A stretch of DNA of 34,104 nucleotides from Candidatus Nomurabacteria bacterium RIFCSPHIGHO2_01_FULL_37_25 (lineage in GTDB: Bacteria > Patescibacteriota > Minisyncoccia > Phycocordibacterales > UBA9973). Location of the stretch: positions 1 to 34,104 of the forward strand of contig MFTH01000010.1 in assembly GCA_001786765.1 (NCBI GenBank), in the 5' to 3' direction. The notes beneath the pieces were generated by a model. It ran no database searches. It saw nothing but the letters and a program-made list of their open reading frames with translations, and had not been told where the DNA came from. Shown in pieces: positions 27,594-30,143 of this stretch (its first letter is position 1; each line of letters begins with the position of its first letter). The translations under genes were made by a program, and so were the position numbers.

Positions 27594-28643
27594 TTATTCT
27601 TTACCTAAAATCTTCACCAACGCAAGCTCTAATGGCAATTCAGCAATAAACGCATTGTCTATATTTTGATACATTTCAAGCAAGATTACGAGCGCGGAAG
27701 AACGGAGCATGCCCGCTTTATCTTCTTTTACTAAAAATTTCAAGAACTCTAAATCAGCTTCCGACAAATCCCCCGCTATCATATCTTGAGTTTTCGGCGC
27801 ATAGCGCAAGATCATTGCCATGCGGAATTTTTGAATTATAAGTTTGAAATATAATTTCATATCCAAATTTGCTTCGGACGCATTCTGCGCGGCTTGCATA
27901 CCTTTTTCTATATTTTTTTCTGCGATAGCAGAGATAAAATCATTCACCAGAGTTGTCCTTGGCGCGCCTGTTATCGTCTCTACATCTTCCCTTTTGATTT
28001 TCTTACTCTTATTGTCTTTTCTGATAAAGTTTATAACTTTTTGGAGTTCACCAAGCCCGTCACGAAACGATCCGTCTGCTAAAATAGCTAAAAGTTCCGC
28101 TCCGCTTTTATCCAACTCATATCCTTCTTCTTTGGCGACATATAAAATTATATTTCTAAGCATTGCTTCGGACGCCTTTTTGAAAGTAAAAACCTGACAG
28201 CGAGAAATAATTGTTTCGGGAACTTTATGGAGTTCAGTCGTGGCTAGAATAAAAATAACATGTTTGGGCGGTTCTTCTAGGGTTTTCAGTAATGCGCCCC
28301 AAGCGTCTTTGGAAAGCATATGCACTTCATCAATTATGTAGATTTTATATTTTGAATCAAAAGGCAAAACTCGCGTGCCGTCGCGAAGAAGTTTTATGTC
28401 CTCGATGCCTCTGTTAGAAGCCGCGTCTATCTCGTAAAGATCGTTCGGGCTTACTCCGATACTTGTCGCAAAAATTCTAGCGACGGAAGTTTTACCGGTG
28501 CCGCGCGAACCCACAAAAAGGTAAGCGTGAGAGACTTTATTTGTCTCTACGGAACTTTCTAGAACTTTCACAATATGGTCTTGCCCTAAGACTTCTTTGA
28601 AACTTTTAGGCCTGTATTTACGATATAAAGCTAAATCGTGCAT
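27594..28643 (-). CDS. dnaX: DNA polymerase III gamma/tau-like subunit, short and without the zinc module
   Basis: LALYRKYRPKSFKEVLGQDHI, GSRGTGKTSVARIFA, YEIDAASNRGIEDIK, IIDEVHMLSKDAWGALLKTLEEPP. Confidence 0.95.
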   Translation of the reverse strand: MHDLALYRKYRPKSFKEVLGQDHIVKVLESSVETNKVSHAYLFVGSRGTGKTSVARIFATSIGVSPNDLYEIDAASNRGIEDIKLLRDGTRVLPFDSKYKIYIIDEVHMLSKDAWGALLKTLEEPPKHVIFILATTELHKVPETIISRCQVFTFKKASEAMLRNIILYVAKEEGYELDKSGAELLAILADGSFRDGLGELQKVINFIRKDNKSKKIKREDVETITGAPRTTLVNDFISAIAEKNIEKGMQAAQNASEANLDMKLYFKLIIQKFRMAMILRYAPKTQDMIAGDLSEADLEFLKFLVKEDKAGMLRSSALVILLEMYQNIDNAFIAELPLELALVKILGKE

Positions 28644-28709: not shown

Positions 28710-28847
28710 TGAATTACGAAACTCGTCGAAGGCATGTCTTTTTTAGGGGGTTTCGAGGCTGTCGAGCCGAGAACTTCAGGATTTTTTTAAGCTTAAAAAA
28801 ATCCGTACCCTAGAAAAAGACATGCCTAGAAAGAGTTTCGTAATTCA
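28710..28847 (+). repeat. Structured intergenic repeat, copy R3
   Basis: Core GGGGGTTTCGAGGCTGTCGAGCCGAGAACTTCAGGATTTTTTTAAGCTTAAAAAAATCCGTACCC; perfect arms 28710-28724/28833-28847 (15 bp) and 28731-28743/28814-28826 (13 bp). Confidence 0.88.
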
Positions 28848-28891
28848 CGATAAAGTATACAACCGAGACTAAAGATTTAGAAATTTTACCC

Positions 28892-28920
28892 TTGCGTAAG
28901 CTAAGCGCTTAGGATATAAT
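28892..28920 (+). promoter_or_regulatory. Sigma-70-like promoter for candidate sRNA
   Basis: TTGCGT-17 nt-TATAAT. Confidence 0.6.
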
Positions 28921-28925
28921 ATAGA

Positions 28926-28989
28926 CATTGAGAGGTTGCCTCTCTAGCTCGCAAGAGCCCATAGCCCCGAAAGGGGCTATTATATTTTT
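28926..28989 (+). ncRNA. Candidate small RNA with three tandem hairpins ending in an intrinsic terminator
   Basis: GAGAGG-ttg-CCTCTC, GCTC-gcaa-GAGC, ATAGCCCC-gaaa-GGGGCTAT, then TATATTTTT; starts about 6 nt after TATAAT. Confidence 0.6.
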
Positions 28990-28991
28990 AA

Positions 28992-30143
28992 TTAAATTTT
29001 AAATAATCTATCAAAAACTATTTTTACTTCTTCTGCATTATTCGCCTCCATCAATTTCATTCGCAATTCCTTCGCGCCATCAAAACCATTTACATATGCT
29101 TTGTAGTGTTTTTTCATAATTGCGAAATTTTTATGTTCACCTAGCATCTTTTGGAAAAGTTTTGTGTGTTCCACCATGACTTCGAGTCGTTCTTTAAGAG
29201 AAATGGCTTCCGGAGAGCACGGATATTTTTCTGCTGAAAAATTCCTCGTGCTCGCGCCGTCGCGCTCCCAAGTCTCTGCGGAAGCCATTTCTCTACAGAA
29301 CAACCACGGGTTCCCAAATATCGCCCTCCCCAACATTACTCCATCGCAACCAGTTTCATTACATTTCCTCCTTGCGTCGTCAGTGTCTACGACATCACCA
29401 TTACCCAAGATTAAAATCTTCTGTCCCACTCTACCTTTTGCAAAGTAAATTTCATCACGAATCTCCACTATTCTTTTCATTAGATCCCAATGCGCAGGAA
29501 CATTAGACATTTCCTTGCGAGTGCGCAGATGCACAGTAAGGGCTGTGATATCGCTTGATAAAAGTTCTCTGACCCAAGTTTCAATTTCGTTTTTATTATA
29601 ACCAATACGTGTTTTCACAGACACAGGCAATCCGCCTCCGCCCTCTATGGCCGCCCTGATACATTCACGAGCTAATGCAGGATTCTTTATCATCGCCGCG
29701 CCCGAGCATTGTTTTTCAACAGACTTATCTGGACAACCCATGTTTATATCTATGCCGTCAAAACCGAGTTCTTTGCAAAGCTCTGAAGCTTTTTTTATAT
29801 TCTCTGACTTTGAACCGAATATCTGGGCTACTATCGGTCTTTCATTTTCTGAATATATAAAATCAATAAGAAGCTTGTCTCTACCCACCGAACAAAGACC
29901 GTCTGCAGAAACAAATTCCGTAAAGAAAATATCTGGCTTGCCATACTTTGCGATTATTTGCCTAAAGGCGCAGTCTGACACATCTGCCATGGGGGCCAGA
30001 GCTAAAATTGGTTTTTTTAATTTCTCCCAAAAATTCACCTCACCCCCGGCCCCTCTCCTTGTCAAGGAGAGGGTGGCTGAAAGTCGGGTGAGGTTTTTTT
30101 CACTTAAATTTGTAGTAGACTTTATTGCCATATCGTAAATCAA
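28992..30143 (-). CDS. dus: tRNA-dihydrouridine synthase; true start possibly GTG at 30038
   Basis: ILALAPMADVSDCAFRQI, GIDINMGCPDKSVEKQCSGAAM, LGNGDVVD, GCDGVMLGRAIFGNPW. Confidence 0.93.
   Translation of the reverse strand: MIYDMAIKSTTNLSEKNLTRLSATLSLTRRGAGGEVNFWEKLKKPILALAPMADVSDCAFRQIIAKYGKPDIFFTEFVSADGLCSVGRDKLLIDFIYSENERPIVAQIFGSKSENIKKASELCKELGFDGIDINMGCPDKSVEKQCSGAAMIKNPALARECIRAAIEGGGGLPVSVKTRIGYNKNEIETWVRELLSSDITALTVHLRTRKEMSNVPAHWDLMKRIVEIRDEIYFAKGRVGQKILILGNGDVVDTDDARRKCNETGCDGVMLGRAIFGNPWLFCREMASAETWERDGASTRNFSAEKYPCSPEAISLKERLEVMVEHTKLFQKMLGEHKNFAIMKKHYKAYVNGFDGAKELRMKLMEANNAEEVKIVFDRLFKI
30038..30093 (-). repeat. 56-bp palindromic repeat, copy B, at the 5' end of dus
   Basis: CCTCACCCCCGGCCCCTCTCCTTGTCAAGGAGAGGGTGGCTGAAAGTCGGGTGAGG; inverted relative to copy A in purN-purD. 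Confidence 0.9.

Follow-up and report, generated by a model that had tools for sequence, protein, structure and literature searches.

A small RNA gene between dnaX and dus

Between the dnaX and dus genes of Candidatus Nomurabacteria bacterium RIFCSPHIGHO2_01_FULL_37_25, a sigma-70-like promoter is followed by three hairpins and a U tract. The locus raises the question of whether these elements form a small RNA gene or only an elaborate terminator and, if the former, what such an RNA might do. The window referred to below is the whole stretch of DNA analysed (34,104 nucleotides, contig MFTH01000010.1). Every element of the orphan, promoter-driven RNA that a sequence-only reading had proposed was found in place by direct reading (Table 1).

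Table 1. Features of the RNA locus and its surroundings in the window.
Feature	Position	Strand	Remarks
dnaX	27594-28643	-	DNA polymerase III clamp-loader match agrees with the name
Possible decayed second RNA, class B1 (CCGAGA...TTTTA)	28863..28887	+	Just upstream of the -35 box; intact B1 RNAs at the same place in L002, L093 and L096; weak
-35 box TTGCGT	28892..28897	+	Read directly; relatives whose spacers have diverged also have a TTGC-type -35 box, 17 nt from the -10 box
-10 box TATAAT	28915..28920	+	Read directly; 17-nt spacer from the -35 box
Small RNA gene, ending in U tract	28927..28989	+	5' end approximate, 6-8 nt past the -10 box
Hairpin 1, GAGAGG-UUG-CCUCUC	28930..28944	+	Present in all relatives
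Hairpin 2, GCUC-GCAA-GAGC	28947..28958	+	Counterpart in sister class is GCC-UUCG-GGC
Hairpin 3, ATAGCCCC-gaaa-GGGGCTAT	28961-28980	+	Read directly
U tract TATATTTTT	to 28989	+	Follows hairpin 3; with it (28961..28989) forms an intrinsic terminator
dus	28992-30143	-	Dus confirmed by Pfam
Toxin scar, last codons (VKIVFDRLFKI) of lost PemK-like gene, fused to dus C-terminus	28995..29027	-	Based on Dus tails of the genus and the G004 remnant

The predicted RNA is ~62 nt long and comprises the three hairpins and then the U tract. The transcript strand folds into three adjacent hairpins at -28.3 kcal/mol, compared with a mean of -15.0 for shuffled sequences (z -4.84), and 0 of 200 dinucleotide shuffles was as stable. 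The RNA is present as a single copy in its own genome. Rfam and tRNA searches returned no family above gathering score and no tRNA over it.

Relatives of the RNA

The same RNA was found in 8 other contigs, which belong to Patescibacteria wherever they are named. Scanning 84,980 species genomes with an exact pattern yielded seven contigs (five named Patescibacteria and two “uncultured bacterium”), a covariance model search gained one more (G376/L147), and the exact pattern had no match in viral contigs. Within the genus (n=80), one genome besides that of the window carries the RNA; this genome, G004, is among the seven from the pattern scan. There the RNA lies between dprA and topA (gene names from translations), not between dnaX and dus. 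Elsewhere in the genus the dnaX-dus gap is typically ~15 bp without the RNA, or holds unrelated inserts, and synteny between these genes, which had been put forward as a check, plays no part.

The window and G004 RNAs show four differences in 65 aligned bases, none of which falls in a stem (the loop changes UUG to UUA and GCAA to GAAA, A to U in a linker, and one base before hairpin 1). G004 has also retained both promoter boxes at 17-nt spacing, despite a diverged spacer. In seven aligned relatives 100% of base-pair cells are paired and four terminator pairs have changed on both sides, although the invariance of stems 1 and 2 in this set is partly a matter of ascertainment, since the pattern search demanded those stems. 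Two relatives found without the pattern search, L147 and L102 (the latter from a sister class), both show compensated variants: the outer pair of stem 1 has changed from G-C to A-U in L147, and the inner pair to U-A in L102. From the alignments, the changes in the terminator and in stem 1 are compensatory. Identity in flanks and spacers is close to random (0.27-0.30), with the -10 box and the core conserved. The hexamers and the fold have been kept at unrelated genomic sites while their surroundings were randomised, which supports the proposed combination of promoter and three-hairpin RNA; on this comparative evidence the element is a real, presumably transcribed small RNA gene. The GNRA loops to which the sequence-only reading had drawn attention look incidental, as UUCG and other loops take their place in related RNAs.

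The weak R1/R2 matches in the genus (E ~1e-5) were examined as candidates and discarded, as they proved to be simply GCCCCGAAAGGGGC-type terminators. At three loci (L002:1412-1473, L093:152-211 and L094:7756-7816) an RNA gene of another class, B1, lies directly beside the window-type RNA, so that RNA genes of different classes stand in tandem at a single locus.

A PemK/MazF-like toxin gene faces the RNA

Across this group of Patescibacteria, relatives of the window RNA lie tail-to-tail with genes for PemK/MazF-type toxins. The RNA is convergent onto such a gene in five loci, of which L093, L096 and L097 are intact and L095 and L099 frameshifted, and the toxin stop codon falls within the terminator tail of the RNA. 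The L093 and L097 products match PemK_toxin (Pfam PF02452, E 3e-13), and the toxins of L096 and L097 are 84% identical. In G004 an in-frame deletion remnant is all that is left of the toxin, with MKDFHDLN joined to EEEEYKKIKIVFDKLFKI.

The toxin is ~130 aa long and scores above the PF02452 cut-off. W7, K11, G34, N36, E40, R50, P51, Q95 and R103 are invariant in the family alignment, the RP motif included. Against the PDB, a profile of the family matches B. subtilis MazF/EndoA (E 5e-10); phmmer of one toxin against the PDB gave no match. An AlphaFold2 model (pLDDT 91) has best PDB matches that are all MazF, and NCBIfam and PADLOC searches were without a real match. No recurring family of small ORFs, MazE/PemI-like or other, was present within 700 nt of 43 toxins, and no protein family recurred upstream of them.

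Loss of the toxin at the window locus

At the window locus no intact cognate toxin adjoins the RNA, and a tail, apparently fused to dus, alone remains. About 40 other Dus proteins of the genus end differently from that of the window (VKIVFDRLFKI), typically in VEKIINDFLxKI, whereas the end of the window dus is identical at 29/30 bases to the toxin remnant that adjoins the same RNA in G004. In the simplest reading of these sequences, the body of the toxin gene was deleted and its final codons were joined to dus, leaving the promoter and terminator of the RNA intact. The sole PemK gene of this genome at E<=1e-8 (C16:58081-58458) has its own RNA, of class B2. The description of the window RNA as an orphan thus holds for this copy, as it does for those of L094 and L147, which have no adjoining toxin; it does not hold for the family, in which RNA and toxin gene form a pair.

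RNA classes and distribution of the pair

Toxin homologues were found in 145/397 genomes of the order and in 32/287 genomes of a phylum-wide sample. Opposite most copies stands a convergent TTGACW-N16/17-TATAAT-like promoter with a short hairpin RNA, the -10 box usually lying 50-64 nt from the toxin stop. Scores for the convergent promoter were higher at 44 toxin loci than at 123 control ORFs (P=9.7e-13). The sense strand downstream of the toxin itself scored at background, and the enrichment of the convergent promoter was repeated in an independent set from the phylum (23 toxin loci, 64 controls, P=2.1e-7). At several toxin loci, e.g., L126, L134, L191, L201 and L214, the usual place showed no clear RNA or promoter.

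The RNAs fall into classes W, B1, B2, B3 and D, each gene being a single unit of 2-3 hairpins with no tandem repeats. Class W is the three-hairpin window type; class B1 consists of GGC-UUCG-GCC, CCGAGA and a terminator; B2 and B3 are without a U tract. When mapped on the toxin tree, RNA class requires 5 changes (minimum 4, shuffled mean 25.6), some of the classes having been assigned by hand. This clade-by-clade pattern shows that RNA and toxin were inherited together, which linkage alone could produce. In searches from the RNA side, a toxin or toxin fragment abuts 24/30 of the best class-B1 matches, or 18/24 with the loci used for model building left out. Strong B1 matches occur in 53 genomes, 51 of which have the toxin, compared with 145/397 overall (P=5e-23).

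At L141 (G213:C17:3000-8500) there are at least 4 PemK-like genes in tandem, and a separate convergent promoter and RNA accompany each of them. At L117, L127 and L215 the RNA promoter lies so near the toxin stop that the RNA would be largely antisense to the coding region.

Outside Patescibacteria, the toxin family is found on mobile elements of a Nitratiruptor plasmid (L217), Helicobacter plasmids (L219, L221) and Campylobacter phage CJIE4-3 (L218). A homologue from the CJIE4 prophage is expressed as protein, and no MazE gene was found with it (PMC3995785). Convergent hairpins abut the toxin stop in the Nitratiruptor and Helicobacter plasmid copies, and the two Helicobacter RNAs retain three hairpins despite sequence changes. 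The layout is weaker in the C. jejuni CJIE4 phage copy, and a C. coli plasmid copy has no comparable fold. The presence of these copies on mobile elements outside the phylum suggests horizontal spread between phyla.

Comparison with known toxin-antitoxin systems

MazF-type toxins are a textbook case of control by a protein antitoxin. The toxin described here resembles those of type II MazEF/PemIK modules in its PF02452 match, its conserved core and its best structural matches, but the adjacent protein antitoxin gene of those modules is missing. Type III modules (ToxIN, CptIN, TenpIN) likewise tie a structured non-coding RNA genetically to an endoribonuclease-type toxin, and their toxins share the MazF/Kid/CcdB fold (PMC5086642). 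In type III, however, the antitoxin RNA lies upstream on the same strand, with one promoter and a terminator between the two genes, and is made up of tandem repeats that the toxin processes; here a single unit of hairpins lies downstream, convergent and with its own promoter. The type III RNA inhibits a MazF-fold endoribonuclease; the structural model points to the same fold here, where the toxin matches PemK/MazF by sequence as well and RNA binding is putative.

The geometry is that of type I pairs such as txpA/RatA, bsrG/SR4 and fst/RNAII, in which a toxin gene and a small RNA converge and their 3' ends overlap (PMC4147584). Provided that both genes are transcribed, the RNA tail would cover the toxin stop codon in the same way. 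Type I toxins are small and hydrophobic, whereas this one is a PemK/MazF protein predicted to have the MazF fold; moreover, the RNA stems are conserved and co-varying, and RNA genes persist without the toxin. Antisense RNA at a MazF locus is also known from aMEF (PMC8749433), which differs in regulating a MazE-containing operon and in stimulating its expression. SymE/SymR joins a ribonuclease-like toxin to an antitoxin RNA, but there the overlap of SymR with symE is at the 5' end and start codon of the gene (PMC4147584). The pair described here would behave as a toxin-antitoxin system whose antitoxin is an RNA, yet it has neither the same-strand, upstream tandem repeats of type III, nor the small hydrophobic toxin of type I, nor the adjacent protein antitoxin of type II. 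No Rfam family and no paper describing such a system was found, the literature search having mostly covered sources other than subscription journals and preprints. The window RNA, with its promoter and three hairpins homologous to the toxin-adjacent copies, belongs to this family.

Proposed function and alternative explanations

We consider it fairly likely that this RNA serves as antitoxin to a MazF-type toxin, in a pair that would combine a type III-like association of RNA and protein with type I-like convergent geometry. In intact loci, a constitutive-looking sigma-70-like promoter ~50-64 nt past the toxin stop would direct transcription at the toxin gene, giving a short transcript, with two or three hairpins, that ends at the toxin's last codons. 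By analogy with ToxI, which binds ToxN, this transcript would most likely fold and bind the MazF-fold protein directly, neutralising an active toxin; cis-antisense pairing with the 3' end of the toxin mRNA might occur besides. Several points weigh against an antitoxin: the tracking of RNA class on the toxin tree could be due to linkage alone, some toxin loci show no clear RNA or promoter where one is expected, classes B2 and B3 are without a U tract, and orphan RNAs by themselves are no proof of function.

If the RNA acted as an antitoxin purely by binding the toxin, with no antisense component, orphans might be kept as immunity to incoming toxins. The chances of this are about even: the toxin has the predicted MazF fold, the class to which ToxN is related (PMC5086642), class-specific RNAs are co-inherited with toxin clades, and orphan RNAs are retained, but the RNA has no tandem repeats and is not upstream on the same strand. 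That the convergent RNA works without protein binding, as cis-antisense to the 3' end of the toxin mRNA or through transcription interference, appears unlikely. The RNA does cover the toxin stop codon, and Gram-positive type I pairs, e.g., RatA/txpA and SR4/bsrG, likewise converge and overlap at their 3' ends (PMC4147584). However, perfect complementarity in cis requires no conserved sequence, yet the hairpins are conserved and compensated between species while the flanks are randomised; orphans with an intact promoter and fold (the window, G004, L094 and L147) have no target in cis; and the toxin is no small hydrophobic peptide. We prefer protein binding to pure antisense, since the stems are kept by compensation and orphans without a cis target are retained. 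A plain bidirectional terminator beside a chance promoter is highly improbable. Hairpin 3 and the U tract do form a terminator, of a kind common in the genus, but conservation is not limited to this last hairpin, as the sequence-only reading would have expected of a plain terminator: conservation is higher in hairpins 1 and 2 than in the terminator, pairs are compensated in relatives, the promoter is conserved, and the position at toxin genes is fixed. This explanation was rejected as contradicted by the comparative data.

Under the preferred reading, in which the RNA probably restrains the toxin, the window copy has outlived its toxin, and would now be an orphan that confers immunity in trans or else a recent relic. 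That the copy is a non-functional remnant of a lately lost module is a serious possibility, if somewhat short of an even chance. The toxin body is absent, its tail is fused to dus, and a decayed B1 RNA may lie upstream; the G004 remnant is still in frame, so the loss may be recent. On the other hand, the window copy shows no damage to promoter hexamers, stems or terminator, and its differences from the G004 RNA have left the stems untouched.

More tentatively, and with rather less than even confidence, we suggest a new type of toxin-antitoxin system, in which “solitary” PemK/MazF toxins annotated as type II would be controlled by a dedicated, convergent, toxin-binding RNA. It would be widespread in Patescibacteria and present in plasmids and prophages of Campylobacterota, and orphan RNAs such as that of the window would be anti-toxin immunity genes. 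Hundreds of PemK/MazF-like genes in Patescibacteria have no visible protein antitoxin, and the RNA supplies a conserved, testable partner for them. It may form a bridge between type II toxins and RNA antitoxins, and it offers a rare way into the study of regulatory RNA in bacteria that are scarcely culturable. The homologues in Campylobacterota carry the question into organisms for which RNA-seq data already exist.

Palindromic repeats near the RNA

The dnaX-dus gap of the window also contains a long imperfect palindrome (~28716-28847, termed R3 in the sequence-only reading), and similar inserts are found in this gap in some members of the genus. Within dus (29200-29300, residues ~285-314), the sequence coding for the Dus protein carries an in-frame insertion of a palindromic repeat. 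Many dispersed repeats of the genus match this repeat in translation, and it resembles the Rickettsia palindromic elements that lie inside genes.
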